64,000 bases of DNA, taken from Claveliimonas bilis. GTDB taxonomy: Bacteria; Bacillota; Clostridia; Lachnospirales; Lachnospiraceae. Where the stretch lies: positions 2,728,001-2,792,000 of the forward strand of contig NZ_AP024845.1 in assembly GCF_020892095.1 (NCBI RefSeq), in the 5' to 3' direction. The stretch's first letter is position 1. Every line of letters starts with the position of its first letter. Shown here piece after piece: positions 6,681 to 19,402 of the stretch. Under the pieces are notes generated by a model that saw only the letters and a list, made by a program, of their open reading frames with translations, did not search any database and had not been told where the DNA came from. The position numbers and the translations under genes were made by a program.

Positions 6681-6733
6681 TGCGGATGGTGGGACTTGAA
6701 CCCACACGAAGTCACCTCCGCAAGATTTTGAGT
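6681..6733 (-). pseudogene. 3' half of a split tRNA-Leu(CAA) gene
   Basis: Read on the reverse strand, the segment starts at the anticodon loop (ACTCAAAATC) and continues with the anticodon stem TCTTG, a variable arm, the T arm GTGGG-TTCAAGT-CCCAC, the acceptor CATCCGC and discriminator A at 6681. No CCA is encoded. The matching 5' half (acceptor GCGGATG) lies at 16610-16649. Joined at the shared 10-base core, the halves give a complete tRNA with perfect acceptor and anticodon stems and anticodon CAA. The integrated element therefore interrupts it, and no substitute 5' half is present next to this fragment. Confidence 0.85.
6724..6733. repeat. left attachment core (attL)
   Basis: GATTTTGAGT is shared exactly with 16610-16619 and marks the left boundary of the element within the anticodon loop of the split tRNA-Leu. 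Flanking bases differ on both sides. The same ten bases occur in the element-borne tRNA at 16420-16429. Confidence 0.75.
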
Positions 6734-6897
6734 TTTACAAACCATTCAGAAGTATCTGGAACATACTGGTGTTGAATGGTATTGAAAAACCGGCAAAAAC
6801 CGCATAAATTCAAGTCCTTTCAGCCATCGGCAACAAATAAACCTTACAGATAAAGGATAATTGAAAAAATGCGGTTTGGCAAGTAAATTTTCCCGTT

Positions 6898-6930
6898 GGA
6901 GGGATATTAGGAGGGATGTGGAGGGATATT
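6898..6930. repeat. left-end iterated repeats, candidate integrase arm sites
   Basis: GGAGGGATATT (6898-6908), GGAGGGATG (6910-6918) and GGAGGGATATT (6920-6930) form a tandem cluster in the otherwise gene-free left arm (6734-6988). The same motif recurs in the same orientation near the right end at 16505-16528. This is the layout expected of arm-type binding sites for a Tn916-like integrase. I see nothing else definable in this arm except the inverted-repeat copy at 6989. Confidence 0.55.
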
Positions 6931-6988
6931 CATTACTCCCCTCCCGGCAAGATACTTATAAATATATTTATAGAAGAAAAGCAGTCAG

Positions 6989-7002
6989 CACCTATCACTG
7001 AC
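6989..7002. repeat. 14-bp inverted repeat, left copy
   Basis: CACCTATCACTGAC here is the exact reverse complement of 14756-14769, just upstream of the integrase start. Each copy precedes an element gene, so it may be an operator or a recombinase/Xis site. Confidence 0.55.
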
Positions 7003-7028
7003 AATCTGATATAAGGAGCTGACGAAGA

Positions 7029-7871
7029 ATGAGAAATAAAGAATATTACGAAGAACGATTTAAGGATTATCCAGACCTTGTGAATTTGGAACAGTTCAGA
7101 GAAATGCTGGGCGGCATAGGCGAGGACGTTATGCAGTCCAGCGAAAGTCTTGGTCTGCCGCCCAATTCCCTTAATACGGAGCAGTCTATTGAGCAGGGGT
7201 GCAAGTATTTTGCTTCCCTGCTTTCTTCAGCAGAAGCGAAAGGCTGCGATATAAATACCGTCGTCCAGAGTTACAACTATGGCGGCGGTTTTATCGACTA
7301 TGTGGCTGCCCGTGGGAAGAAATACAGCTTTACACTGGCAGAGAGCTTCGCAAGGGAGAAATCCGGCGGCGTCAAGGTGGACTACAAGAATGAAATTTCC
7401 ATCAAGCAGAACGGTGGCTGGCGGTATAAATACGGGAATATGTTCTATGTGCAGCTCGTCTCACAATATCTGGCTGTACCTCATTTCAGCGACGCAACCG
7501 CACAGGCAATATTCAATGAAGCCTTAAAATATCAAGGCTGGAACTATGTCTATGGCGGCAGCAATCCTAATACTTCCTTTGATTGCAGCGGTCTGGTTCA
7601 GTGGTGCTATGGGAAAGCCGGTATCTCACTTCCGAGGACGGCACAGGCACAGTATGACGCTGTGCAGCATATCCCTCTGTCACAGGCAAAAGCCGGCGAC
7701 TTGGTATTTTTCCACAGTACCTACAGTGCCGGAACGTATGTAACCCACGTCGGGATATACGCCGGAAATAACCGTATGTACCATGCCGGTGACCCGATTG
7801 GATATGCAGACCTCAATTCCTCGTACTGGCAGCAACACTTCATCTGCGCCGGACGTGTAAAATCCAACTAA
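7029..7871 (+). CDS. NlpC/P60 hydrolase (Tn916 Orf14-like) fused to a foreign HTH-protein N-terminus
   Basis: A 280-residue protein. Residues from about 28 on match the C-terminal part of Orf14-type bifunctional lysozyme/NlpC-P60 proteins, which open the cell wall for the conjugation machinery. The NlpC/P60 domain (about 158-278) has Cys176 in SFDCSGLV, His230 in THVGIYAG and a third polar residue near YHAGD. The preceding lysozyme-like region lacks its start, including the catalytic glutamate. The first 27 residues instead resemble the Xis-like protein at 14488 (FKDYPD, a valine-rich strand, EQ..EML). No signal peptide or membrane anchor remains, so export is doubtful. The start has AAGGAG. 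An in-frame deletion fusion is the simplest reading. Confidence 0.8.
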   Translation: MRNKEYYEERFKDYPDLVNLEQFREMLGGIGEDVMQSSESLGLPPNSLNTEQSIEQGCKYFASLLSSAEAKGCDINTVVQSYNYGGGFIDYVAARGKKYSFTLAESFAREKSGGVKVDYKNEISIKQNGGWRYKYGNMFYVQLVSQYLAVPHFSDATAQAIFNEALKYQGWNYVYGGSNPNTSFDCSGLVQWCYGKAGISLPRTAQAQYDAVQHIPLSQAKAGDLVFFHSTYSAGTYVTHVGIYAGNNRMYHAGDPIGYADLNSSYWQQHFICAGRVKSN

Positions 7872-7892
7872 GACAGAAAGGACAACATTTTT

Positions 7893-8801
7893 ATGAAATG
7901 GAAGAAAAAAGAAAAAGAGACTAAACCTAATAAGGTGAAAAAGGTGCGTACTATGAAAGTCGGCACGCACAAGAAATCCGTGATTGCCCTGTGGCTGGTG
8001 CTGATTGCAAGTGTCAGCTTCGGGGTATATAAGAATTTCACGGCGATAGATATGCACACTGTCCATGAAAAGGAAATCATAGAACAGCGTATTGTGGACA
8101 CCAATAAAATAGAAAATTTCGTCAAGGACTTTGCAAAAGCCTATTATACATGGAGCAATACCAAAGAAGCGATTGACGCACGGACAACCGCCATCAGCGG
8201 CTACCTCACAGAGAGCTTGCAGGATTTGAACGTGGACACTGTCAGAAGCGATATTCCTACCAGCTCTGCGGTGGGCGAAGTCAAGATATGGAATATCGGG
8301 CAGACCGGCGAGGACGAGTACACCGTCCTCTACTCGGTAGATCAGACGGTGACGGAGGGCGAACAGGTGACAGAAAACACTGCCGCTTATACGGTAATCG
8401 TCCATGCGGACAGCAACGGGGATATGGTTATCATCAAGAACCCGACTATCAGCAGCCTGCCGGAGAAATCCAACTATACACCAAAAGCGAAGGAAGCGGA
8501 CGGCTCGGTAGACGCTGCCACCACAGCGGAAGTGACAGAGTTTTTGGAAACATTCTTCAAGCTGTATCCTACCGCCACAGATAAGGAGCTTGCCTACTAT
8601 GTGTCTGGCAATGCCCTTGAACCCGTGGGCGGCAATTATCTGTTCTCGGAGCTTATCAACCCGGTATTTTGTATGGATGGGGATAATGTCAAAGTGTCCG
8701 TATCCGTGGCATATTTAGACCAGACTACAAAGGCAACACAGGTATCACAGTTTGATTTGACACTGGCAAAGATGGACGGAAACTGGAAAATCATTCAATA
8801 G
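7893..8801 (+). CDS. TcpC/Orf13-type conjugal transfer protein
   Basis: A 302-residue bitopic membrane protein of the TcpC (Tn916 Orf13) family, a VirB8-like mating-pore component. It has a lysine-rich cytoplasmic start, one membrane helix (about residues 33-50, SVIALWLVLIASVSFGVY) and an outer part with two NTF2-like halves (about 70-190 and 205-302). It lies 21 bases after the NlpC/P60 gene, in the same order as orf14-orf13 of Tn916. The gene looks intact, but its partner proteins are missing from this element. Confidence 0.8.
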   Translation: MKWKKKEKETKPNKVKKVRTMKVGTHKKSVIALWLVLIASVSFGVYKNFTAIDMHTVHEKEIIEQRIVDTNKIENFVKDFAKAYYTWSNTKEAIDARTTAISGYLTESLQDLNVDTVRSDIPTSSAVGEVKIWNIGQTGEDEYTVLYSVDQTVTEGEQVTENTAAYTVIVHADSNGDMVIIKNPTISSLPEKSNYTPKAKEADGSVDAATTAEVTEFLETFFKLYPTATDKELAYYVSGNALEPVGGNYLFSELINPVFCMDGDNVKVSVSVAYLDQTTKATQVSQFDLTLAKMDGNWKIIQ

Positions 8802-8810
8802 CGTAGATAA

Positions 8811-8844
8811 GGCTTGCAGCATACTTTGGTGTGATCTGCAAGCC
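8811..8844 (+). terminator. hairpin after the tcpC-like gene
   Basis: GGCTTGCAG (8811-8819) pairs exactly with CTGCAAGCC (8836-8844). There is no T-run, so it may be a processing or transcript-end hairpin. It marks the junction between the conjugation remnant and the AT-rich cargo. Confidence 0.4.
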
Positions 8845-8956
8845 AGTCTGCCTAATAAAAATCATCGAAATAATTAGTATAGACATTTAAGGAACACTAT
8901 CTTGCGGTTATCCTATATATGCAGTATCATATGGGGCAGAAAGGAAGTTGAATATC

Positions 8957-9619
8957 TTGAAAAAAATATTGATTATTGATGATGATTTACATATCGGAAA
9001 TGTACTTGAAGAAACACTTACTAATGAAGGATATGGTGTTACTCGTGCTTATTCTGGTACGGAAGCCGTGCTTGTACTTTCAAAAACAAAACCCGACCTT
9101 GTACTTCTTGATTTAATGCTGCCGGGACTAAGTGGTGAAGAAGTGCTACCGCACATTAAAGGTATTCCTGTAATTGTTATGAGTGCAAAAGTCGATATTG
9201 ACAATAAGGTTGAATTATTGCTTGGTGGTGCAGTTGATTATATGACAAAGCCGTTTCACACAAAAGAATTGTTAGCTCGTATTGCAGTACATCTTCGCAC
9301 TTTTAATACTTTTGACAAGCCAAAGGTTTTGACTTTCGGAGAAATCGAACTTGCCAGTGATACACATATAGTACAGATAAAAGACCAAAAAATTAAATTG
9401 ACAAGAACAGAGTATGCCATTTTGAAACTTTTAATGCAAAATCCTACGCAAGTGATTTCAAAGGCTCACCTCCTTGACCGTATTAGTGAAGATACACCAG
9501 ATTGTACAGAAAGTTCATTAAAAACACATATCAGCCACTTAAGAGCAAAACTATGCGGAGTTAATGGAAAAGATTATATCGAAACTATCTGGGGAATTGG
9601 TTTTAGAATGAAAGGATAA
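8957..9619 (+). CDS. OmpR/PhoB-family response regulator
   Basis: A receiver domain (residues 3-112; acidic pocket IIDDD, phospho-acceptor Asp52 in LVLLDLMLPG, MSAKVD and the conserved lysine in DYMTKPF) is followed by a winged-helix DNA-binding domain (about 125-220; TRTEYAILKLL, ESSLKTHISHLRAKL). It probably controls the ABC genes downstream in response to the kinase encoded at 11420. The TTG at 8957 is chosen as start because AAAGGAAG is nine bases upstream. A TTG at 8948 is in frame but touches that ribosome site. Confidence 0.85.
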   Translation: MKKILIIDDDLHIGNVLEETLTNEGYGVTRAYSGTEAVLVLSKTKPDLVLLDLMLPGLSGEEVLPHIKGIPVIVMSAKVDIDNKVELLLGGAVDYMTKPFHTKELLARIAVHLRTFNTFDKPKVLTFGEIELASDTHIVQIKDQKIKLTRTEYAILKLLMQNPTQVISKAHLLDRISEDTPDCTESSLKTHISHLRAKLCGVNGKDYIETIWGIGFRMKG

Positions 9620-9710
9620 ATCCTTAACAAAATCTCAACATTTTTCCTTACCATTTTCTCAACTGTTTTATTGTAAAGTACCCTTATCAATCCAAAGGAG
9701 GAGGAAAACC

Positions 9711-10625
9711 ATGGAATACATTCTTAAAACTAACGATTTAGTAAAACGCTATGGTCGTTATGAAGCGCTGAATGGACTGACTATGAATGTTCCTAAAGGC
9801 TCTATCTATGGTCTTGTCGGAAAAAATGGTGCTGGAAAAACAACGCTAATTCGTCTTATTTGTGGACTTCAAAATCCAACGAGTGGAGAATATTCTATTT
9901 ATGGAGTGAGTAATAAACAAAAAGAAATTATACAATCTCGTCATCGAATGGGGGCTGTTGTAGAAACACCTGCTATTTATCTTGATATGACTGCTGAAGA
10001 TAATTTGAAAGTTCAACATTGTGTTCTTGGATTGCCGTCTTTTGATGAAATACCCCATATTTTGAAGATGGTTGGTCTTGAAAATACCGGCAAAAAAAAG
10101 GCTAGAAACTTTTCACTTGGTATGCGTCAACGCTTAGGAATAGCTGTTGCAATAGTAGGTTCCCCGGATTTTCTTGTATTAGACGAGCCAACTAATGGAC
10201 TAGACCCACAAGGCATTGTTGAAATGCGTGAAATTATATTAAAATTAAACCGTCAACATGGAATTACTATTTTAATTTCAAGCCACATTCTTGATGAAAT
10301 GGCACGATTGGCAACTCATTTTGGCTTTATTGATAACGGTCAAATGATAGAGGAAATTAGTGCTTCTGAATTAAATGCTGCTTGCCGTAAATGTATTCAT
10401 GTGTCCGTATCTAATATTAAAGCATTAAGCAAGGTGCTGGATGATATAGGATTGGAATATACTATTTTCCCCAATAATGAAGCTGACATTTTTGGAGAAC
10501 TCAACGTAACAGAGCTTGTCTTAAAACTTTCAGCAGAAAATTGTGATGTTAAATCACTCTATGAACGTGATGAAAGCCTTGAAAATTATTATATCAATTT
10601 GCTGGGAGGTATAAGTAATGATTAA
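9711..10625 (+). CDS. ABC transporter ATP-binding subunit, bacteriocin/antibiotic-export type
   Basis: A 304-residue ATPase with Walker A (GKNGAGKTT), a signature-like motif FSLGMRQRLG, Walker B FLVLDEPTNGLDPQG and the switch histidine in ISSHILDE. It belongs to the BcrA/lantibiotic self-protection branch, with a C-terminal extension after residue 220. The ribosome site GGAGGAGG is excellent. It overlaps the permease gene by eight bases, so the two are translated together. In this branch substrates are usually lantibiotics, bacitracin or similar peptides. The specific substrate is unknown. Confidence 0.85.
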   Translation: MEYILKTNDLVKRYGRYEALNGLTMNVPKGSIYGLVGKNGAGKTTLIRLICGLQNPTSGEYSIYGVSNKQKEIIQSRHRMGAVVETPAIYLDMTAEDNLKVQHCVLGLPSFDEIPHILKMVGLENTGKKKARNFSLGMRQRLGIAVAIVGSPDFLVLDEPTNGLDPQGIVEMREIILKLNRQHGITILISSHILDEMARLATHFGFIDNGQMIEEISASELNAACRKCIHVSVSNIKALSKVLDDIGLEYTIFPNNEADIFGELNVTELVLKLSAENCDVKSLYERDESLENYYINLLGGISND

Positions 10626-11406
10626 ACTATTGTTAGCTAATAAAATGCGTCTCAAAAAAAATAAATTATTCTGGAGTGGCTTATTTATAACAGTGGGATA
10701 TTGTTTACTGCTACTATTGCTTAACTATATTGAAATGATTTCGCATACGGGCAATTCTATTATAATGGTAGATTGGTACTTATTAGCTCCTTTTTCTGCT
10801 TTGAGTTTTTTCTGTCCTATTTTTTGCTCTATGTTTATTGGAACAGAATATAGTGATGGTACTATCAGAAATCGTTTAATTGTAGGTCATACAAGAAAAA
10901 GCATTTATTTATCAAATTTTTTTACAGTTAGTTTTGCCTGCGTTATTATTGCCATTATTGCAAGTCTAGTGGTAACAATATTTTATGTCATATTCTTCGG
11001 ATGGAATATATCAAATCCTATGACATTTATTCTATATTACTTTTGTGGATTACTTATGCTTATTGCAATGTCTGGTCTTTTTTCGCTAATAGCAATGTTG
11101 ATCAGTAATAAATCAAGCTCTCTTTTAGTTTGTATAATGATATGTTTATCAAGTTTTGTTTTGGAGAATATTGTAAAAACGTGGATTTTCAACGGCTTTG
11201 ATGAAGGTATATTTCCCAAAGCAAAAATTTTTCATTCTCAATTCATATCAGAACTTTTATACGATGTTATACCTATGGGGCAATGCCTTCAGATTACAGG
11301 AGAAATGGTGTTTCATCCTTTTAGATTGCCGTTATATTCCTTACTGTTTATCATAATAACACTTGTGTGTGGTATATGGTTTTTTGAGAAAAAGGATTTG
11401 AAATAA
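10618..11406 (+). CDS. ABC-2-type permease
   Basis: A 262-residue membrane protein with six predicted helices (about residues 17-37, 55-75, 95-120, 135-160, 165-185 and 235-255). It has the cytoplasmic motif GTEYSDGTIRNRLIVGHTR, typical of lantibiotic-immunity permeases that pair with a BcrA-like ATPase. It overlaps that ATPase gene and is followed 13 bases later by the sensor kinase. Base composition is visibly AT-rich, like the rest of the cargo. Confidence 0.8.
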   Translation: MIKLLLANKMRLKKNKLFWSGLFITVGYCLLLLLLNYIEMISHTGNSIIMVDWYLLAPFSALSFFCPIFCSMFIGTEYSDGTIRNRLIVGHTRKSIYLSNFFTVSFACVIIAIIASLVVTIFYVIFFGWNISNPMTFILYYFCGLLMLIAMSGLFSLIAMLISNKSSSLLVCIMICLSSFVLENIVKTWIFNGFDEGIFPKAKIFHSQFISELLYDVIPMGQCLQITGEMVFHPFRLPLYSLLFIIITLVCGIWFFEKKDLK

Positions 11407-11419
11407 GGAGGTCAGTATC

Positions 11420-12319
11420 GTGATTTGGCTTTTGCTGCTATGTATTGTTTTAGCAATAACTGTTTTCATTCTTGGCATTAAATTATTTTTAATTCGGAAA
11501 GCTGCTATAGAAATATGCGATGAGTTCAGCGAAAAATTAAAGAGCGATACCAATACCTTAATCTCGATTTCTACCGATGATAAGATTATGTGCTATCTTA
11601 CTAAAAATATAAATATTCAACTTAAGGAGCTACGATTACAACGATTGCGTTATATGCAGGGGGATTTAGAATTGAAAAATGCAGTTACAAATATTTCACA
11701 CGATTTGCGTACCCCACTAACGGCAATTAGTAGTTACTTAGATTTGCTCGATAAAGAAGAAAAAAACGAAACTATAGAACGATATATAGGCATAATAAAA
11801 AATCGTACAGAAACTTTAATCCAGCTCACAGAGGAATTGTTTCGTTATTCTATTATTACATCGCCAAATAATAATATAAAATTAGAACCAGTATCTGTAA
11901 ATAGAATTTTGGAAGATAGTATTTTACAATTTTATGCTACTTTACAAGAACGAGGGATAACTCCTTCTATTAACATAACCGAAAAAAAGGTGGTTAGAAA
12001 TCTAAGCTCTGTTGAACTGTCCCGCATTTTTTCAAATATTTTGAGTAATGCAGTTAAGTACAGTGACGGAGATTTGAATGTTACACTTACAGATAATGGA
12101 ATAATTCAATTTTCCAATACAGCTTTTAATTTGAATGATGTACAGGTTGAAAGATTATTTGACCGCTTTTATACGCTTGAAAATGCGAGAAAGTCAACGG
12201 GACTTGGATTATCAATATCAAAGATATTGGTTGAACAAATGAATGGCACAATATCTGCGAAATATGAGAAGGAAAAGTTAAATATTAGTATTGAATTTCC
12301 AAATCCTACTGACGATTAA
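11420..12319 (+). CDS. sensor histidine kinase with a minimal membrane sensor
   Basis: A 299-residue kinase with a single N-terminal membrane helix (about 3-25) and almost no outside loop. This suggests that the ABC transporter or the membrane itself provides the signal, as in intramembrane-sensing kinases. The H-box ISHDLRTPLTA places the phosphorylated residue at His94. The ATPase has N-box ILSNAVKYSDG and G-box STGLGLSI. It starts with GTG behind AAGGAGG. The regulator-ATPase-permease-kinase order is a common layout for peptide-antibiotic defence modules. Confidence 0.85.
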   Translation: MIWLLLLCIVLAITVFILGIKLFLIRKAAIEICDEFSEKLKSDTNTLISISTDDKIMCYLTKNINIQLKELRLQRLRYMQGDLELKNAVTNISHDLRTPLTAISSYLDLLDKEEKNETIERYIGIIKNRTETLIQLTEELFRYSIITSPNNNIKLEPVSVNRILEDSILQFYATLQERGITPSINITEKKVVRNLSSVELSRIFSNILSNAVKYSDGDLNVTLTDNGIIQFSNTAFNLNDVQVERLFDRFYTLENARKSTGLGLSISKILVEQMNGTISAKYEKEKLNISIEFPNPTDD

Positions 12320-12336
12320 AAGGGGGGGGTGTATGT

Positions 12337-12525
12337 TTGAAAGAAATGCAATGGCTACGTTGTCCTATTTGTGGTAATAAGACAAGGAACAAGATTAGAG
12401 AAGATACTATTTTAATAAATTACCCTCTTTTTTGTCCAAAGTGCAAACAAGAAAGTTTAATCGAAGTTAGAAATATGCAAATAACAGTTATCGAAGAGCC
12501 AGACACAAAGATGCAGAGCCGATAA
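12337..12525 (+). CDS. cysteine-rich KTR-domain protein of conjugative elements
   Basis: A 62-residue protein with two CxxC pairs (CPICGNKTR and CPKC), presumably binding zinc, and a tail close to the family's usual ending (EEPDTKMQSR). These small proteins recur in Tn916/Tn1549-like elements and their role is unknown. The TTG at 12337 lies seven bases after an unusually long G-run (AGGGGGGGG). The ATG at 12346 is an alternative. Confidence 0.7.
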   Translation: MKEMQWLRCPICGNKTRNKIREDTILINYPLFCPKCKQESLIEVRNMQITVIEEPDTKMQSR

Positions 12526-12577
12526 TTTAAAGGTCAGCCCTTTTAAATTACCGGCTCATTTTTTATGGAGTGGATAC

Positions 12578-12937
12578 CTACTTCCCCTCTGCTTCTTTAG
12601 ACTTGACGATACCATCAATGACGCTCTCTACAATGATAAGCTCTTGATCGGTAAGCTCGTCAAGTCCGGCTTCCACAGCTCTACGCCGGGTACTTTTAAT
12701 CCGGCGTTCACCGGCTGACAGAAAATGTTCGTCGAGAGATACGTCGAGCAAGGAGACAAGGTCATATAGCACCTGTAGGCTAGGGTGCGCCCCTTTGTTT
12801 TCAATGTTTGTTAAATAACGTGGGTCAATCTCTATTGCTGCGCCCACCTGTTCACGGGTCAATCCCTGTCTTTTGCGTGCTTCCTTGATTGACTGTCCTA
12901 CTGCTCTGAAATCGTATCTATCTTCTTTTTTACGCAT
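12578..12937 (-). CDS. Cro/CI-type helix-turn-helix regulator
   Basis: A 119-residue regulator with an HTH_XRE domain at about residues 12-70 ([17 protein letters not shown], then [18 protein letters not shown]). A short helical tail follows. It is transcribed against the rest of the element, next to a long regulatory gap, like the orf9-type regulator of Tn916 relatives that restrains element genes. That role here is inference. Confidence 0.8.
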
Positions 12938-13069
12938 ATGTAATCACCTCACCACATTTTACTGTTCCTGTTGAATTAGCAACAGGTATAAAAAAACGTG
13001 TTATAGGACTTTTCAATTCCTATTAGGTGTATTTTCAACTATATATGCTGCATGGCGGCAAATAAAAAA

Positions 13070-13142
13070 AAACCGCCGTTGGCAGCAAGGCTTTTTATGC
13101 GCCTTTTTAAACGACGGTTTCACAGCCGCCGTTTTCTTTTTT
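13070..13142 (+). promoter_or_regulatory. possible attenuator: mutually exclusive hairpins ending in a T-run
   Basis: Segment 13070-13080 (AAACCGCCGTT) can pair with 13110-13120 (AACGACGGTTT, one mismatch). The latter can also pair with 13126-13133 (CCGCCGTT), directly before an 11-base T-rich run, which makes a terminator. GGCGG at 13054-13058 offers a fourth partner for 13073-13077. This is the arrangement of a terminator/antiterminator in the 546-base gap 12938-13483, upstream of the sigma-like gene. No transcript evidence is available. Confidence 0.4.
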
Positions 13143-13188
13143 CCAGACGGTCAAGGTTTTTGTTTTAGCGGCTTTAGGAGGTAGCCGC

Positions 13189-13272
13189 ATGGAAATTCGT
13201 ATCAGACCGCCGGTGGTCTTTGGTAGACCATCAAAAAAATCTCACTTCTTCCTGCGGCTCAAAGCACCCTAG
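13189..13272 (+). CDS. possible 27-residue small protein or leader peptide
   Basis: ATG at 13189 follows a strong AGGAGG eight bases upstream and opens a short basic frame (starts MEIRIRPPVV, ends LRLKAP). It lies between the attenuator-like hairpins and a clear terminator. It could be a leader peptide whose translation affects the downstream terminator, or a real small protein. It is unrecognised, and the evidence is the ribosome site and position only. Confidence 0.35.
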   Translation: MEIRIRPPVVFGRPSKKSHFFLRLKAP

Positions 13273-13310
13273 AATGTGGTTTTTCACATCACACAGCAGG
13301 AATAATCTGC

Positions 13311-13355
13311 AAAGCACAAGATCAGTACGTTTGTATTGTCCTTGTGCTTTTTTGC
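13311..13355 (+). terminator. intrinsic terminator in the element's regulatory gap
   Basis: AAAGCACAAG (13311-13320) pairs perfectly with CTTGTGCTTT (13341-13350) and is followed by further Ts. A second A/T-only palindrome (AAAAACTTTTT / AAAAAGTTTTT) follows at 13360-13382. The first would end transcripts that include the small frame at 13189. Confidence 0.65.
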
Positions 13356-13483
13356 TGCCAAAAACTTTTTGAAAAAGTTTTTGAAGTCGGGTATCAAATC
13401 CCACCTTCTCTGGCGAGTGTTAGTGCGGAAAGGGGTAAAAGCCTTTTTGCTTTAGCAACTTCCGACAGAAAGGAGGTGAGATT

Positions 13484-13900
13484 ATGAAACCATCTTCTTT
13501 CGAGAGTGCTATCAGACTTCAATTTGACTGTCTAGCTCGTAAAGTTGTAGGCACTACAGTAAAGGACTATAACAGAGAGCTTGGCAGACGTGCAAAACGT
13601 GAAACTCCGTTCTGCGAGCTGTCCGAGATGGAAATAAACCATATCGGCGCTGTAGACGAATACTCGGTTGAATTTACAGCCTTTGACGTATTCGGCAATG
13701 AAGTCCGTATCTATGATGAACGCTTATGTGAAGCAATCAAAAAATTAGCAGAAAGGCGGCGTAACATTCTGCTTATGTCGTACTTTCTGGAGATGACCGA
13801 CGCTGAAATAGCAGCGGTCATGGAAATGGAGCGTTACTCCGTTTGCCGCAACAGACTACGCACATTGAAGCTCATTAAGGATATGTACGAGGAGGGTTAA
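13484..13900 (+). CDS. sigma-70 region-4-like regulator (Tn916 Orf7-like)
   Basis: A 138-residue protein. The C-terminal part (about 85-135) resembles sigma region 4: a helical stretch followed by LEMTDAEIAAVMEMERYSV, a helix-turn-helix reading of the -35 type. The N-terminus starts SSFESAIRLQFDCLARKVV. Orf7-type proteins sit upstream of orf8/xis/int in Tn916-like elements and activate element functions. A strong AAAGGAGGTG precedes the start. Orf8 follows six bases downstream. Confidence 0.75.
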   Translation: MKPSSFESAIRLQFDCLARKVVGTTVKDYNRELGRRAKRETPFCELSEMEINHIGAVDEYSVEFTAFDVFGNEVRIYDERLCEAIKKLAERRRNILLMSYFLEMTDAEIAAVMEMERYSVCRNRLRTLKLIKDMYEEG

Positions 13901-13905
13901 AACAT

Positions 13906-14142
13906 ATGAAGTCTGTAAAGAAGTGTCCGCTGTTCTCAACCATCTGCTCTGCGGCAGACGGCGAGGAAACGGCGATTGAAAAGATTTTGAACCACTACGA
14001 CGCTTACATATCAAAAGCAAGCCTACGCCCGTTCTATGACGAACACGGCAATATGTATATTGTGGTCGATATGGAACTGAAAGGCAGAATAAGAGCTGCG
14101 CTGATTGAAGCAATTCTTGGTTTTGAAGTCAAAGTGAAATGA
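13906..14142 (+). CDS. Tn916 Orf8-like small helix-turn-helix protein
   Basis: A 78-residue protein with the family pattern: a GEETAIEKILNHYDAYISK helix, an RPFYDEHGN..Y turn and an RIRAALIEAIL helix. It is probably a small regulator translated with the preceding sigma-like gene (six-base gap). Its precise role in mobile-element control is not established. Confidence 0.75.
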   Translation: MKSVKKCPLFSTICSAADGEETAIEKILNHYDAYISKASLRPFYDEHGNMYIVVDMELKGRIRAALIEAILGFEVKVK

Positions 14143-14204
14143 AGCCTACAGGAGCATGTACCACCTCATTCCAGCTCCTAATCTTGCTCTTTGAAAATTG
14201 AATA

Positions 14205-14459
14205 AGGTAATCAGATACTTTAGATATATGACGAGCCTGTAGGCAGATACGCCATGACCTCATACACATGAGCGAGCGGTTCATATCTGTGATCTGCAAG
14301 CGACTTGTGGAATGGTCGTGTGCCATGACTCATATATCCTACAATGATACTCCCGTATAGCCTTAGTTTGAGCGTTAGAAGCGTCGCACGCAAAGGGTAT
14401 GGCTGCACCGTGTATGCAGGGGTGAGACTCCCGTGAGCCGCTAGGCTGTCTGATTACCT
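14205..14459 (+). ncRNA. candidate structured RNA upstream of xis
   Basis: The only gene-free stretch between orf8 and xis (14143-14487) is closed by a perfect 11-base pair: AGGTAATCAGA (14205-14215) with TCTGATTACCT (14449-14459). Several local hairpins lie inside, such as CTCAT-acac-ATGAG, CAAG-CGA-CTTG and CTGCA-ccgtgta-TGCAG. The segment is more GC-rich than the cargo and has no convincing reading frame. A 255-nt closed multibranch layout suggests an RNA acting on excision or on xis-int expression. The family is not recognised and this rests on pairing seen by eye. Confidence 0.45.
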
Positions 14460-14487
14460 GTCTGTATCTTGCCCCGGAGGTGTTGTA

Positions 14488-14700
14488 ATGGATAAAGAAT
14501 ATATGATAAACGATACCTACCGTGTAATGTTCAAGGATTATCCAGACGTAGTAACCGTGGAGCAAATGAGTGAAATGCTCGGTATCAGTATGAAAACAGC
14601 CTACATTTTATTGAGGGAAAATAAAATCCTGCATTTTAGGGTCGGAAGAACCTATAAGATACCAAAGCTCAATATCTTGCGGTACATGGAAATGCTGTAG
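14488..14700 (+). CDS. xis: excisionase-like MerR/AlpA-type DNA-binding protein
   Basis: A 70-residue protein with a winged-helix DNA-binding unit (EQMSEMLGISMKTAYILLR, then HFRVGRTYKIPKLNILRYM), typical of Xis proteins of Tn916-like elements. It would bend element ends and favour excision by the integrase. The start lies behind CGGAGGTG. It is directly upstream of int, as expected. Its first 30 residues resemble the start of the fusion protein at 7029. Confidence 0.8.
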   Translation: MDKEYMINDTYRVMFKDYPDVVTVEQMSEMLGISMKTAYILLRENKILHFRVGRTYKIPKLNILRYMEML

Positions 14701-14755
14701 AGGTTTACTGCGTCGCTTGTTGTCAGCAGCCTTAGAACCTGTTATACTTGACATA

Positions 14756-14769
14756 GTCAGTGATAGGTG
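14756..14769. repeat. 14-bp inverted repeat, right copy
   Basis: GTCAGTGATAGGTG is the exact reverse complement of 6989-7002 and lies 28 bases before the integrase start, overlapping a plausible promoter region (TATACTTGACAT). Confidence 0.55.
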
Positions 14770-14797
14770 AATGGCTGCTGCTATTAGGAGGACAAAC

Positions 14798-16321
14798 ATG
14801 GTAGCAGGACATTTACGAAAACAAAACGGATATTTCCAGATGATTTTAAGCTATAAAGACAGCACTGGCAAAAGGCGTACAAAATCAATCAGTACAGGAC
14901 TTCCCGTAAAGGGAAATCAGAAGCGTGCGGAAGCTATGCTTTTGGAAACGAGAAAGAATTTCACGCCAGAGGAAGCTATGACGGATAAAGAACTCCCATT
15001 TGACAAGTTCCTCGACAAATGGCTGAAAGACCATCTCAACCTTAAGACCTTAGAAGCAGAAACATATGCTCTGTACTCTTACAATGCGAGAATGTATCTC
15101 ACACCGTATTTTCAAAAAAAGACAATTCGTATCTGTGATTTGAAGACTACGGACATTGAGAGCTATTACAATTACGAGAGAACGGAACACCACGCTTCAA
15201 AGGTGGTAATCTTACAGCTACATGAGATTATCAAAATTTCTCTTGATTATGCGGTCACGCTTGGCTGGATCGAGGACAATCCGGCAGACAGTATCAATCC
15301 GGCGACAAACGAGGTATCTATCTTATTTACGGATTTTATGCTGGAATGGCTGGAAATGATGAAACAGTGTGTAGAAGAAACAACAATGGCTTCTTACACA
15401 TGCTCTGTGAAAAAGCGTATTGTTCCCTACTTTTTAGAGAAACGATATACTTTGACAGAGATTGAGGAAAACCCTAAATACATTCAAGACTACTATCAGT
15501 CAGAATTGGATAAGGGGCTGTCTGCTAACACTGTTATTCACCGCCATGCCAATATCAGAAAGGCTCTGCAATATGCTTTTCAGATTGGACTCATCAAATC
15601 AAACCCGGCAGACCGTGTGGAAAGACCAAAGAAGAACAAATTTGTAGCTTCCTACTATAATAAAGAAGAACTTGACACTTTGTTCAAAGTTTCTAAAGGC
15701 GACCCTATGGAACTGGCGATTATCCTCGCTGCTTTCTATGGTCTGCGCCGTAGTGAAGTAATAGGTCTGAAATGGAGTGCGATTGATTTTGAGCGTAAAA
15801 CTATCACAATCAAATACACTGTAACAGAAGTCAATCTGAATGACGGGCGTGGCAATGTGCTTATTGAGAAAGAACGGACAAAGTCAAAGACCAGCCGCCG
15901 CACGCTGCCGCTTGTTAAACCGTTTGAAGATTTACTTATCAAGATGTATCGGGAACAGAAACAGAACCGGCGATTGTGTGGTGACTGTTATTGCACGGAT
16001 TATCTGGACTTTATCTATGTTAATGAAATCGGGGAAAGAATAAAACCCGGTTATCTGACACAACATTTTCCCTTGTTGCTGAAAAAACATAATCTGCGGA
16101 AAATCCGCTTTCACGATTTGAGACATAGCTGTGCCAGCCTTTTATATGCAAATGGCGTGAGCTTGAAGCAGATACAGGAATGGCTCGGTCACAGTGACAT
16201 TTCTACAACATCTAATATCTATACGCATTTAGACTACAGCAGCAAGGTTTCATCTGCCAATGCGATATTATCCGTGTTCCCGTCACAGACGGCAGCGGAG
16301 ATTGAAAAGGCAGTAGGTTAG
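14798..16321 (+). CDS. int: tyrosine site-specific integrase with duplicated core-binding domain
   Basis: A 507-residue recombinase that should catalyse insertion into and excision from the tRNA-Leu core. An N-terminal AP2-like arm-binding domain (about 3-50) is followed by two similar SAM-like core-binding segments, residues 68-158 and 167-267, which both end in an aromatic/hydrophobic-G-I/L-..-NPAD motif. The catalytic domain carries arginine in YGLRRSEVIGLKW, HDLRH, the GHSD histidine and the nucleophile tyrosine in SNIYTHL. Tn916-type enzymes of about 400 residues have only one core-binding domain. The start at 14798 has AGGAGG six bases upstream. The upstream in-frame ATG at 14771 lacks one. 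Confidence 0.9.
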   Translation: MVAGHLRKQNGYFQMILSYKDSTGKRRTKSISTGLPVKGNQKRAEAMLLETRKNFTPEEAMTDKELPFDKFLDKWLKDHLNLKTLEAETYALYSYNARMYLTPYFQKKTIRICDLKTTDIESYYNYERTEHHASKVVILQLHEIIKISLDYAVTLGWIEDNPADSINPATNEVSILFTDFMLEWLEMMKQCVEETTMASYTCSVKKRIVPYFLEKRYTLTEIEENPKYIQDYYQSELDKGLSANTVIHRHANIRKALQYAFQIGLIKSNPADRVERPKKNKFVASYYNKEELDTLFKVSKGDPMELAIILAAFYGLRRSEVIGLKWSAIDFERKTITIKYTVTEVNLNDGRGNVLIEKERTKSKTSRRTLPLVKPFEDLLIKMYREQKQNRRLCGDCYCTDYLDFIYVNEIGERIKPGYLTQHFPLLLKKHNLRKIRFHDLRHSCASLLYANGVSLKQIQEWLGHSDISTTSNIYTHLDYSSKVSSANAILSVFPSQTAAEIEKAVG

Positions 16322-16334
16322 AACTTTTGACAAT

Positions 16335-16366
16335 AAAAAAGCTCTCTAGCTGGAAGCTAAAGAGCT
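16335..16366 (-). terminator. terminator of the element tRNA-Leu
   Basis: On the reverse strand, AGCTCTTTAGCT (16366-16355) pairs with AGCTAGAGAGCT (16351-16340, one mismatch), followed by a run of Ts (16339-16335). It lies nine bases past the tRNA 3' end, and the T-run lies on the tRNA's strand, so it serves the tRNA rather than int. Confidence 0.7.
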
Positions 16367-16374
16367 GAATTTGC

Positions 16375-16460
16375 TGGTGCCGCTGGCCGGACTCGAACCG
16401 GCACGGATATTCTCCGTCTGATTTTGAGTCAGGTGTGTCTGCCAATTCCACCACAGCGGC
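16375..16460 (-). tRNA. tRNA-Leu(CAA), complete, carried by the element
   Basis: A full cloverleaf on the reverse strand: acceptor GCCGCTG/CAGCGGC, anticodon stem CCTGA/TCAGA-type with loop CTCAAAA (anticodon CAA), long variable arm GACGGAGAATATCCGT, T arm GCCGG-TTCGAGT-CCGGC, discriminator A and encoded CCA (16377-16375). It decodes UUG. It lies between int and the right attachment core, so inside the element. Its sequence differs from the interrupted host tRNA-Leu, which lacks an encoded CCA, but has the same anticodon loop, including the 10-base core at 16420-16429. Confidence 0.95.
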
Positions 16461-16504
16461 TTATATTTCAAATCCCTTATTTCTTGTATATCCTTTCCGA
16501 TTTT

Positions 16505-16528
16505 GGAGGGATATGCAGGAGGGATATT
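16505..16528. repeat. right-end iterated repeats, candidate integrase arm sites
   Basis: GGAGGGATAT (16505-16514) and GGAGGGATATT (16518-16528) repeat the left-end motif at 6898-6930 in the same orientation. They lie about 80 bases inside the right core, in the gap between the element tRNA and attR. Confidence 0.55.
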
Positions 16529-16609
16529 GAAAACGAAGCAAGTCATTAAGTTGTCAAAAGCCTTGAAAAATCAAGGGATTTAAAAGTTATCTATCAGCCG
16601 AGCGCATTG

Positions 16610-16619
16610 GATTTTGAGT
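16610..16619. repeat. right attachment core (attR)
   Basis: GATTTTGAGT, identical to 6724-6733. Bases to its right continue as the 5' half of the interrupted tRNA-Leu, and bases to its left belong to the element. Confidence 0.75.
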
Positions 16620-16649
16620 CTTGTGCGTCTGCCATTCCGCCACATCCGC
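16610..16649 (-). pseudogene. 5' half of the split tRNA-Leu(CAA) gene
   Basis: On the reverse strand from 16649: acceptor strand GCGGATG, D-arm region GGCGGAATGGCAGACGC, anticodon stem CAAGA and loop ACTCAAAATC, then a switch to element sequence. It lacks variable arm, T arm and 3' acceptor, which lie 9.9 kb away at 6681-6733. If the host tRNA promoter is still active, it would make a truncated, element-fused transcript. The remaining 140 bases before polA hold no clear gene or strong promoter. Confidence 0.85.
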
Positions 16650-16789
16650 AGGTGGTCTTTTGTAAGAACCGAATGTAAGTATAGCATATTGATATTTGAA
16701 TTACAAGATTTTTCAACAAATTTTTTCTTTTAAAATGGGAAAGATTGTTGTATAGTAGATTCAGTAGCTTTATAAGATGGAGAAAAAAT

Positions 16790-19402
16790 ATGGCGGAAAA
16801 AATTGTATTGATTGACGGACACAGTATTTTGAACAGAGCCTTTTTTGGTCTTCCGGATCTTACAAATTCGGAGGGACTTCATACGAATGCCATTTACGGT
16901 TTCCTTAACATTATGTTAAAACTGCTGGATGAGGAGAAGCCGGAGTATCTTACGGTAGCTTTTGATGTACATGCGCCAACCTTCCGGCATGAAATGTATG
17001 AAGAATATAAAGGGACAAGAAAACCTATGGCGGACGAGCTGCGACAGCAGGTCCCTGTAATGAAGGAAGTCCTCCGGTCCATGGGAATCAGGATCATAGA
17101 ACAGGAAGGCCTGGAAGCGGATGATCTTCTGGGGACGCTCTCAAAACGATGTGAGAGCGAAGGCATGGATGTGACCATCATCAGTGGAGATCGGGATCTT
17201 CTGCAGCTTGCCACGGACAAGGTAAAGATCCGTATCCCTAAGACGAAGCAGGGAAGAACAGAGGTGGAGGACTATTATGCGGCTGATGTAAAAGAGCGTT
17301 ATCAGGTGACTCCTCTGGAATTTATTGATATGAAAGCGCTTATGGGAGATACCTCGGATAATATTCCCGGAGTTCCCGGAATTGGGGAGAAAACTGCGGC
17401 GAAGATCATTACAGAATACCACAGCATAGAAAACGCGTACCAGCATGCCGGGGAGCTGAAGCCGCCCCGTGCATCCAAAGCTATTGTAGAATACTGGGAT
17501 ATGGCAGTGATGAGCAAGAAGCTGGCAGCAATCTGTGTAGATGCATCGCTGGATTATGATATTGAAAGCGCAAGACTTGGAAATATTTTCACGGAAGAGG
17601 CATATACCCTTTTTCAGAAACTGCAGTTCAAAAATCTTTTGAGCCGTTTTGAGGTGAAAGGCCCTTCCCATGCGGTGGAAGATTCCTTCCGGACTGCCGG
17701 AAGCCGCGAGGAGGCGGAACGCATTCTCGAAGAAGCGGCGGAAGCAGAAACTCTGGGTATGGCTGTCTTTCGGAGAACAGCAGAGGCACTTCCGCTTTTT
17801 GCAGGAGAGGCACGGATTGGAGGAGTTGCTCTTTGCTTCGGAGAAAAGGAAATTTACTGTATTCCGGAAGAGAAGATGGAGATAGCGGAACTTCTGGAGA
17901 AACTGGAGAAATTATCTGCCGGCCCGAAGACGTTGTCTGTCTTTCATCTGAAAGAAACAATGAAATATTTTACGCCATCTGTCAAAGACAATTGTTTCGA
18001 TGGGATTATTGCAGCATATCTTTTGAATCCTCTTAAAAATGATTATGAATTTGAGGATGTGGCAAGAGAACAGCTGGATCTTCTTTTGGAAGAGAAGATG
18101 GAAGATGAAAAGAAAGCATGCTATGAAGCTTATACCGCCTATGCGTCAGCTGCTCCTTTACAGGATAAGCTGGAAGAGGCGGGAATGTGGAAGCTTTTCA
18201 AAGAAATAGAAATGCCGCTTGTATTTACGCTTTTTGATATGGAACAAAATGGAGTCCGGGTAGAGGCGGATGAACTGAAAGATTACGGAAACAGACTTGC
18301 AGTTCAGATCAGCAGGCTGGAACAGGAAATCTGGCAGGAGGCGGGAGAAGAGTTCAACATTAATTCTCCGAAACAGCTTGGAGTCATCCTTTTTGAGAAG
18401 ATGGGACTTAAAGGCGGAAAGAAGACAAAAACCGGATACTCTACTGCAGCAGATGTGCTGGAAAAGCTGGCGCCGGATTATCCTGTTGTAGCTAAAATCC
18501 TGGAATACAGACAGCTGGCAAAGCTGAAATCCACCTACGCCGACGGCCTTGCAGCCTTTATCTCGGAAGATGGAAGGATTCACGGGAAATTTAATCAGAC
18601 GATTACCGCGACCGGCCGGATCAGCAGTACGGAGCCGAATCTACAGAACATTCCGGTTCGGATGGAGCTGGGAAGGCTGATAAGGAAAGTATTTGTTCCG
18701 GAAGAGGGATTTGTCTTTGTGGATGCAGACTATTCCCAGATTGAACTTCGAGTGCTGGCCCATTGTTCGGGGGATAAGCAGCTTATTGAGGCTTACAGAG
18801 AGGAAAAGGATATCCACAGAATTACCGCTTCCCAGGTATTCCATACCCCTTTTGACCAGGTGACGGATCTCCAGAGAAGAAATGCCAAGGCAGTCAATTT
18901 TGGGATTGTATATGGAATCAGCTCTTTTGGGTTAAGCCAGGATCTGAGCATTACGCGGAAAGAAGCGGCACAGTATATAGAACAATATTTTCACACTTAT
19001 CCGGGAATCAAAATTTTCCTGGATGATGCTGTGAAACAGGCAAAAGACAAAGGATATGCCGTCACTCTTTTTGGAAGGAGAAGGCCTGTGCCGGAACTTT
19101 CTTCCAGCAATTTCATGCAGCGTTCCTTTGGAGAGAGGGTGGCAATGAACTCACCTATCCAGGGAACGGCGGCGGATATTATGAAAATTGCCATGATCGG
19201 TGTAAATGACCGGCTGAAATCCGGGAATATGAAATCCCGGCTTGTTTTGCAGGTGCATGATGAACTTTTGGTGGAAGCCTGGGAGAGTGAGGCAGAAGAA
19301 GTCAAAAAGATACTGAAGGAAGAAATGGAGCAGGCGGCATCCCTTGCGGTACCGCTGGAAATTGATATGCATACCGGAAAAAGCTGGTATGAGGCAAAAT
19401 AG
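16790..19402 (+). CDS. polA: DNA polymerase I
   Basis: An 870-residue repair and Okazaki-fragment polymerase. The 5'-nuclease domain (1-290) has IDGHSILNRAF, the acidic-site motif EGLEADDLLGT and SGDRDLLQL. The middle exonuclease-like domain (about 295-460) lacks the acidic DxE proofreading motif (it reads AETLGMAVFRR), as in Bacillus-type enzymes, so proofreading is unlikely. The polymerase domain has the A motif DADYSQIELR, the B helix RRNAKAVNFGIVYG and the C motif VHDELLVE. The start at 16790 has GGAG seven bases upstream. An upstream in-frame ATG at 16745 lacks a ribosome site. It is followed 13 bases later by coaE. Confidence 0.97.
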   Translation: MAEKIVLIDGHSILNRAFFGLPDLTNSEGLHTNAIYGFLNIMLKLLDEEKPEYLTVAFDVHAPTFRHEMYEEYKGTRKPMADELRQQVPVMKEVLRSMGIRIIEQEGLEADDLLGTLSKRCESEGMDVTIISGDRDLLQLATDKVKIRIPKTKQGRTEVEDYYAADVKERYQVTPLEFIDMKALMGDTSDNIPGVPGIGEKTAAKIITEYHSIENAYQHAGELKPPRASKAIVEYWDMAVMSKKLAAICVDASLDYDIESARLGNIFTEEAYTLFQKLQFKNLLSRFEVKGPSHAVEDSFRTAGSREEAERILEEAAEAETLGMAVFRRTAEALPLFAGEARIGGVALCFGEKEIYCIPEEKMEIAELLEKLEKLSAGPKTLSVFHLKETMKYFTPSVKDNCFDGIIAAYLLNPLKNDYEFEDVAREQLDLLLEEKMEDEKKACYEAYTAYASAAPLQDKLEEAGMWKLFKEIEMPLVFTLFDMEQNGVRVEADELKDYGNRLAVQISRLEQEIWQEAGEEFNINSPKQLGVILFEKMGLKGGKKTKTGYSTAADVLEKLAPDYPVVAKILEYRQLAKLKSTYADGLAAFISEDGRIHGKFNQTITATGRISSTEPNLQNIPVRMELGRLIRKVFVPEEGFVFVDADYSQIELRVLAHCSGDKQLIEAYREEKDIHRITASQVFHTPFDQVTDLQRRNAKAVNFGIVYGISSFGLSQDLSITRKEAAQYIEQYFHTYPGIKIFLDDAVKQAKDKGYAVTLFGRRRPVPELSSSNFMQRSFGERVAMNSPIQGTAADIMKIAMIGVNDRLKSGNMKSRLVLQVHDELLVEAWESEAEEVKKILKEEMEQAASLAVPLEIDMHTGKSWYEAK

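Follow-up and report, generated by a model that had tools for sequence, protein, structure and literature searches.

A Tn916-like element that splits a tRNA-Leu(CAA) gene in Claveliimonas bilis and carries a probable replacement tRNA

Introduction

In actinophages, tRNA-dependent lysogeny has been shown experimentally: the phages share an attachment core of 8–17 bp with a host tRNA gene, rebuild no functional tRNA upon integration and encode a tRNA of the same isotype themselves (PMC10865867). Phage Gaia integrates at tRNA-Leu-CAA through a core of 8 bp and carries its own tRNA downstream of its integrase gene; the tRNA of phage Fionnbharth overlaps another gene and has its own measured promoter (PMC10865867). 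Here we analyse a 64-kb stretch of the Claveliimonas bilis chromosome (the window; NZ_AP024845.1, G000:C1:2728001-2792000), in which a 9.9-kb element splits a tRNA-Leu(CAA) gene and carries a complete tRNA-Leu(CAA) of its own.

Comparable arrangements have been described elsewhere. Prophage Lj965 of Lactobacillus johnsonii reportedly rebuilds no tRNA and encodes the cognate tRNA (as cited in PMC10865867). For integrative and conjugative elements (ICEs) of Pasteurellaceae (ICEPmu1, ICEMh1) an intact tRNA-Leu is described as replacing the disrupted one (PMC6028734), and in Sinorhizobium meliloti a tRNA gene inactivated by the integration of phage-related sequences is said to be replaced by an element-borne isoacceptor (PMC11476347). 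The arrangement in PMC6861422 is different, with one functional and one partial tRNA copy.

Results

A split tRNA-Leu(CAA) gene and its empty site

The genome that holds the window (G000) is a single contig of 3.04 Mb. The element (approximately 6734-16609, in window coordinates, as are all positions below) interrupts a tRNA-Leu(CAA) gene at a 10-bp core in the anticodon region, and the features that define the site are as follows:

16678..16706, minus strand: promoter-like site of the host tRNA gene, TTGTAA-17-TATACT with a TG preceding the -10, located upstream of the split gene; the sole minus-strand promoter-like site found by promoter scan in 16300-16800
16610..16649, minus strand: 5' half of the host tRNA-Leu(CAA), ending in the core; match to the rejoined gene
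16610..16619, no strand: attachment core copy GATTTTGAGT on the side of the integrase gene (int); core count
16375..16460, minus strand: carried intact tRNA-Leu(CAA) with encoded CCA; the only tRNA called in the window by ARAGORN (tRNA match 54.9 bits, cut-off 29)
6724..6733, no strand: attachment core copy on the far side; core count
6681..6733, minus strand: 3' half of the host tRNA-Leu(CAA); match to the rejoined gene and anticodon-arm pattern

The core occurs three times in the 64 kb, at 6724, at 16420 within the carried tRNA and at 16610, where 0.29 occurrences would be expected, and the acceptor stems of the separated halves pair at 7/7 positions. When the halves are rejoined at the core they form an 84-nt gene that is present unbroken, with 100% identity over 84 nt, in a second genome of the species that lacks the element (G061), where it is flanked by the polA and DUF169 genes. 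G061 has no integrase match at E <= 1e-60, and its one Leu(CAA)-type pattern match lies at the site that is split in G000. The empty site and the single match there together show a clean insertion in which the spare tRNA arrived with the element. These results bear out the original prediction that two halves 9.9 kb apart join at a 10-bp core, as well as its proposed comparison with an element-free relative, which has an intact tRNA at the DUF169-polA junction and no counterpart there of the gene at 16375. The prediction that neither junction restores the missing half also held, since ARAGORN reads no tRNA at either junction; the complete hybrid tRNA that an ordinary tRNA-site element would leave at one of them was not found in the window.

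A genome-wide count of Leu(CAA) genes likewise turned up no second intact copy, the other result that would have refuted the original interpretation. Among 54 tRNA matches in G000, each of the ten with class-II length (at least 80 nt) was assigned by ARAGORN; Leu anticodons TAA, TAG, CAG and AAG were found once each, CAA in the element only, and an anticodon-arm pattern search for CAA hit nothing besides the carried tRNA and the orphaned 3' half. As tRNA-Leu(UAA), which is present, is able in principle to wobble-read UUG, Leu(CAA) is probably not strictly essential in this host; the need for a spare should be stronger in relatives with a split Leu(UAA), Ser(UGA) or Gln(UUG).

The arrangement recurs in a family of related integrase loci

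Two relatives in the same genus have the same arrangement with other isoacceptors: G005 splits and carries tRNA-Leu(UAA), and G003 splits and carries tRNA-Ser(CGA). We pooled 134 loci with relatives of the integrase from several searches, some of them near-duplicates, including the best 8 of 30 loci from one search, the best 80 of 560 relatives from a genome scan and, out of 14 related loci from viral contigs, those left after L205-L207, which had no integrase match, were dropped; L215, the window itself, was excluded. A tRNA convergent with int lay within 450 nt at 90/134 loci, and 67/90 had an orphan 5' half further out, scored against a threshold calibrated on shuffled sequence. These loci are partly non-independent (L179 and L230 are identical across the compared 2.2 kb, L135 and L214 share the 3' half and flank), and the 67 split loci correspond to 55 clusters at ~88% identity.

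The distance from orphan half to tRNA was nearly constant, with a median of 148 nt and values of 120-185 nt in 61/67 loci; it was unusually short in L165, L172, L183 and L212 (15, 92, 32 and 31 nt). Ten isoacceptors were represented: Ser(CGA) in 25 loci, Leu(CAA) in 16, Leu(UAA) in 10, Ser(UGA) in 9, Phe(GAA) in 2, and Leu(CAG), Gln(CUG), Gln(UUG), Lys(CUU) and Ser(GGA) in one each. The best-scoring half from a library of 32 isoacceptors was that of the carried isoacceptor in 66/68 rows (one being the duplicate L215), and in the two exceptions, L153 and L166, the carried anticodon was contained; since the anticodon lies in the shared core, some of this agreement is to be expected. The original reading of the 16375 tRNA as a gene of the element, matching the split one in isoacceptor, is supported, and the arrangement is repeated with other isoacceptors in relatives.

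Judged by sequence, several of the 23 loci without an orphan half resemble plain restoration, a promoter-like site lying immediately upstream, and in L152 the core alone is found, at 150 nt. The integrases of L217 and L218 are almost identical (end branches of 0.003), the orphan half being present in L217 only and the L218 tRNA lying directly behind a promoter-like site; collapse of the L218 spacer through recombination between two cores was considered. In many spacers (e.g., L033, L133, L179) an inverted repeat around AAACCCTTGATTTTA...GGGTTT recurs between core and carried tRNA. It was considered as a terminator and left without an assigned role, the T-run lying inside the stem in the spacers inspected.

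Carried tRNAs mostly look promoterless

Promoter-like sites upstream of the orphaned host half and of the carried tRNA were compared at the 55 loci whose spacers are distinct and 120-185 nt long, using the best score within 85 nt upstream from a simple, hand-made sigma70 matrix and mononucleotide shuffles. The mean best score was 8.9 ahead of the host half and 5.9 ahead of the carried tRNA, a difference with p = 5e-4 in a paired Wilcoxon test. Scores >= 12 were reached by 17/55 host sides, 0/55 spacers and 0.8% of shuffled spacers, and scores >= 11 by 20/55 host sides and 1/55 spacers. At >= 10 the numbers were 24/55 host sides and 7/55 spacers (shuffles 5%), and at >= 9 there were 10/55 spacers (shuffles 10%). 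A narrower earlier test gave p <= 0.05 for 35% of 66 host sides, 14% of 64 spacers and 30% of 20 control tRNAs without an orphan half. From these scores the carried tRNAs look mostly promoterless, which suggests that transcription of most spares starts at the promoter of the host tRNA and runs on through the orphan half; some spares may have a promoter of their own, and promoter capture would then not be universal.

The carried tRNA travels with a mobile module and can itself be split

A matching 3' half was found for G005 at C34:140581, giving an element of ~137 kb, for Clostridium viride (G808), giving ~66 kb, and for G271 on another contig; the acceptor stems pair 7/7 in all three. A candidate far half for the Paenibacillus locus L127 was rejected, as it reads as a complete second tRNA-Leu(CAG) gene and not as a 3' half. 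The pattern searches show no intact gene of the kind besides the carried copy in G005 (Leu UAA) and G808 (Ser CGA), though G003 has another. The G005 element encodes a type IV secretion system (T4SS) coupling protein, and that of C. viride encodes T4SS-type ATPases and an NlpC/M23 protein. Since one G005 protein matches phage tail/endolysin families and the split locus L194 sits in a viral-collection contig, the wider family may include phages or phage-like members.

Caproiciproducens galactitolivorans (L158) and C. viride (L192) have an identical 1,628-nt stretch of spacer, carried tRNA and int; their host halves differ, and the flanks outside the halves do not align. An identical module in two genera, beside different host halves, indicates that the carried tRNA belongs to the mobile module. 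Loci L114 and L208 are 94.0% identical over 1,911 nt, aligning only from the half inward, and L032 and L117 are 94.8% identical over 1,986 nt, some host flank included. The L114 contig is labelled Candidatus Odoribacter (a Bacteroidota metagenome-assembled genome); its element is 94% identical to that of L208, which comes from the window's own family, and the contig is possibly mis-binned.

Insertions also occur in tandem. Two or three serial orphan halves were found in 9/67 loci (L179 and L230 perhaps being one genome), counted at a fixed score threshold without a shuffled control and with the second half of L120 barely above it. Of 39 loci that have no complete tRNA next to int and 150 nt of flank or more, 15 have the 3' part of a tRNA only, mostly cut at the core (L200 is a weak example; L135 and L214 seem to be one and the same). 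On a contig of C. galactitolivorans such a 3' half directly follows an older family integrase, ~63 kb from a younger carried tRNA, which indicates that a carried tRNA serves as target for a later element. A rapidly built maximum-likelihood tree with 82 integrases (61 from split, 21 from single loci) implied 20 isoacceptor changes, with SH-aLRT support only and several long branches. The Leu(CAA) core is one base from the Leu(UAA) core and one base from the Ser(CGA) core, and such near-identical cores could ease switching between isoacceptors.

Gene content of the window element

The remaining features of the element are listed from the int side to the far end:

16505..16527, plus strand: two arm-type direct repeats GGAGGGATRT in the spacer; repeat search
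16340..16366, minus strand: terminator-like hairpin directly after the carried tRNA, ahead of the convergent int; sequence scan
14771..16321, plus strand: tyrosine integrase of 516 aa with an extra SAM-like core-binding domain; PF00589, E 8.4e-28
14488..14700, plus strand: Xis-like HTH_17 protein of 70 aa; Pfam
13906..14142, plus strand: HTH_16 protein; Pfam
13484..13900, plus strand: sigma-70 region 4-like protein; Pfam
12578..12937, minus strand: XRE-type regulator; Pfam
12337..12525, plus strand: Cys_rich_KTR protein; Pfam
8948..12319, plus strand: cargo of response regulator, ABC ATPase, ABC permease and histidine kinase; Pfam
7893..8801, plus strand: TcpC-like conjugation protein; Pfam
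7029..7871, plus strand: lysozyme-like/NlpC-P60 protein, the lysozyme domain lacking its N terminus; Pfam
6898..6929, plus strand: three arm-type direct repeats GGAGGGATRT near the far end; repeat search

The five occurrences of GGAGGGATRT in the window (0.28 expected) all lie within the two ends of the element and look like arm-type integrase sites. The gene set is like that at one end of a Tn916-type element, and the HTH_16 and sigma-like genes are of the Tn916 regulatory type; the cargo cluster is of the general type known from peptide-antibiotic response systems. As no relaxase or coupling protein was matched among the 13 element proteins scanned by Pfam, the element is probably a remnant of a Tn916-type element. 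It does not have the make-up of a temperate phage: conjugation-type genes are present, and none of the 13 proteins matched a phage structural protein. In plasmid and phage collections, relatives of the integrase reach at most ~50% identity, and four phage-collection records cover at least 80% of it.

The second SAM-like core-binding domain of the integrase (approximately residues 73-182) is 28.7% identical to the neighbouring domain (E 7e-12). By alignment position and a length of 498-552 aa it is shared by ten other loci (L114, L115, L116, L208, L217, L218, L221, L222, L223 and L229), where this criterion does not tell the two domains apart. At the far end, the start of the lysozyme/NlpC open reading frame resembles that of the Xis-like frame (53 nt, 75% identical) and the lysozyme domain begins at profile position 36, which, at the sequence level, suggests a deletion fusion.

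Alternative explanations

The tRNA at 16375 could be an ordinary host gene that adjoins the element, for example in a tRNA tandem. It lies close to the split gene, and tandem tRNA genes do occur in the genomes examined, yet this explanation is very improbable: the same spare and spacer stand next to differing host halves in two genera, the geometry is common to 67 loci, and the sole Leu(CAA)-type match of the element-free G061 is at the split site. It was rejected because G061 lacks this gene at the polA-DUF169 site. We give as little credence to ordinary tRNA-site integration that restores the gene at one junction and was misread through a short core or a wrong assembly. The 23/90 loci with a tRNA and no orphan half, several of which resemble plain restoration, would fit it, but neither half in the window is completed at its junction, the genome is a single contig, and loci from other genomes agree with the split arrangement. 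Deserving of more weight, though still unlikely, is a spare with its own promoter in the spacer, which would work independently of the insertion site, as in phage Fionnbharth, for which a tRNA promoter has been published (PMC10865867). The spacers that score at >= 9 and >= 10, set beside their shuffles, and the 14% that pass the narrower test are in its favour. Against it stand the complete lack of spacers scoring >= 12, the lower spacer mean and the want of any minus-strand promoter-like site between the two tRNA parts in the window; moreover, the spare sits directly behind the host 5' half, a place that a self-sufficient gene would not need.

Several results weigh against a replacement tRNA that depends on capture of the host promoter. 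Beyond the spacers scoring >= 10, the simple matrix and shuffles behind that test, the possible own promoters and the missing relaxase or coupling-protein match, 44/134 loci have no tRNA within 450 nt of int, and the orphan half is absent at 23/90 (three of which have <60 nt of flank). The counts come from a search that took tRNAs within 450 nt of the int stop codon and orphan halves within 300 nt, in the tRNA orientation only, and in L139 and L176 the matched half ends short of the anticodon. Another copy of the split isoacceptor exists in G003, as a further Ser(CGA) pattern match with the same sequence as the intact G000 gene, and in Paenibacillus L127; replacement of the split tRNA is therefore not always needed.

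Discussion

We consider it highly probable that the window holds a reduced Tn916-type element in the anticodon loop of tRNA-Leu(CAA), whose own spare replaces the broken gene from behind the host promoter. The tyrosine integrase would have used the core to insert the element into the host's single tRNA-Leu(CAA) gene, and 10 bp would be too short for a tRNA gene to be rebuilt at a junction on either side. The isoacceptor-matched complete tRNA, which lies beside int and is oriented like the host gene, came with the element, and integration would set it ~150 bp beyond the orphaned 5' half and hence behind the host tRNA promoter. The putative terminator would keep the spare apart from the convergent int, and the spare would stand in for the broken gene while the element remains integrated. 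Precise excision would restore the host gene exactly. The original interpretation is retained for an element-borne spare of the same isoacceptor and not for its further suggestion that loss of the element is costly; a cost would arise only upon imprecise deletion.

For the family as a whole we favour, with some reservation, a general form of this explanation. The integrase lineage, widespread in Clostridia, found also in Paenibacillus and partly borne on ICE-type elements, would carry a fixed cassette of core, ~148 bp with arm sites, promoterless tRNA and int. The spare would be silent until a host promoter is captured, and an element that inserts correctly would thereby turn on the repair of the gene it breaks. 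The spare, which contains the same core, would in turn be a fresh target for the next element and allow serial stacking, in which only the tRNA of the youngest element is intact.

The principle of a split tRNA replaced by an element-borne one is already established. In a literature search by title and abstract start, with most subscription journals outside its coverage, we recognised no paper on the Clostridia/Paenibacillus family, the conserved cassette, the promoterless spare or the stacking. The present loci extend tRNA-dependent integration from actinophages to elements of Clostridia and Paenibacillus, at least three of which have conjugation-type genes, and suggest a different control logic in which a repair gene is turned on by the target's own promoter. 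This would explain isolated tRNA halves and single-copy tRNAs of foreign origin in these genomes. Mobile DNA can thus supply part of the decoding capacity of a host, and what is annotated as a host tRNA or called essential here may in fact be a gene of an element.

Among known systems, Tn916-type elements are close in gene content: TcpC, NlpC/lysozyme, XRE, sigma-like, HTH_16, Xis-like and Int genes are all present in the window element by Pfam. Unlike them, it is 9.9 kb long, has no relaxase or coupling match among the scanned proteins and has a tRNA-type attachment end. ICEPmu1 and ICEMh1 resemble it in their use of the anticodon loop of tRNA-Leu and in a nearly identical core (GATTTTGAAT), a likeness of site and core drawn from their description, and differ in belonging to another phylum. 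The S. meliloti case follows the same principle with other hosts and elements, again as described. Lj965 is alike in principle and differs in being a prophage, as far as the citing paper describes it.

A close parallel is actinophage tRNA-dependent lysogeny, with which the window element shares a tyrosine integrase, a short core (here 10 bp) inside the host tRNA gene, the lack of a rebuilt tRNA and a carried tRNA of the same isoacceptor. Whereas the Fionnbharth tRNA has its own measured promoter, most spares here would use that of the host. The present family also differs from the actinophages in its hosts, Clostridia and Paenibacillus rather than Actinobacteria, in the conjugation-type genes of at least three of its elements, in the near-constant distance between tRNA and core, in tRNAs that mostly look promoterless, and in the ten isoacceptors found among related integrases.

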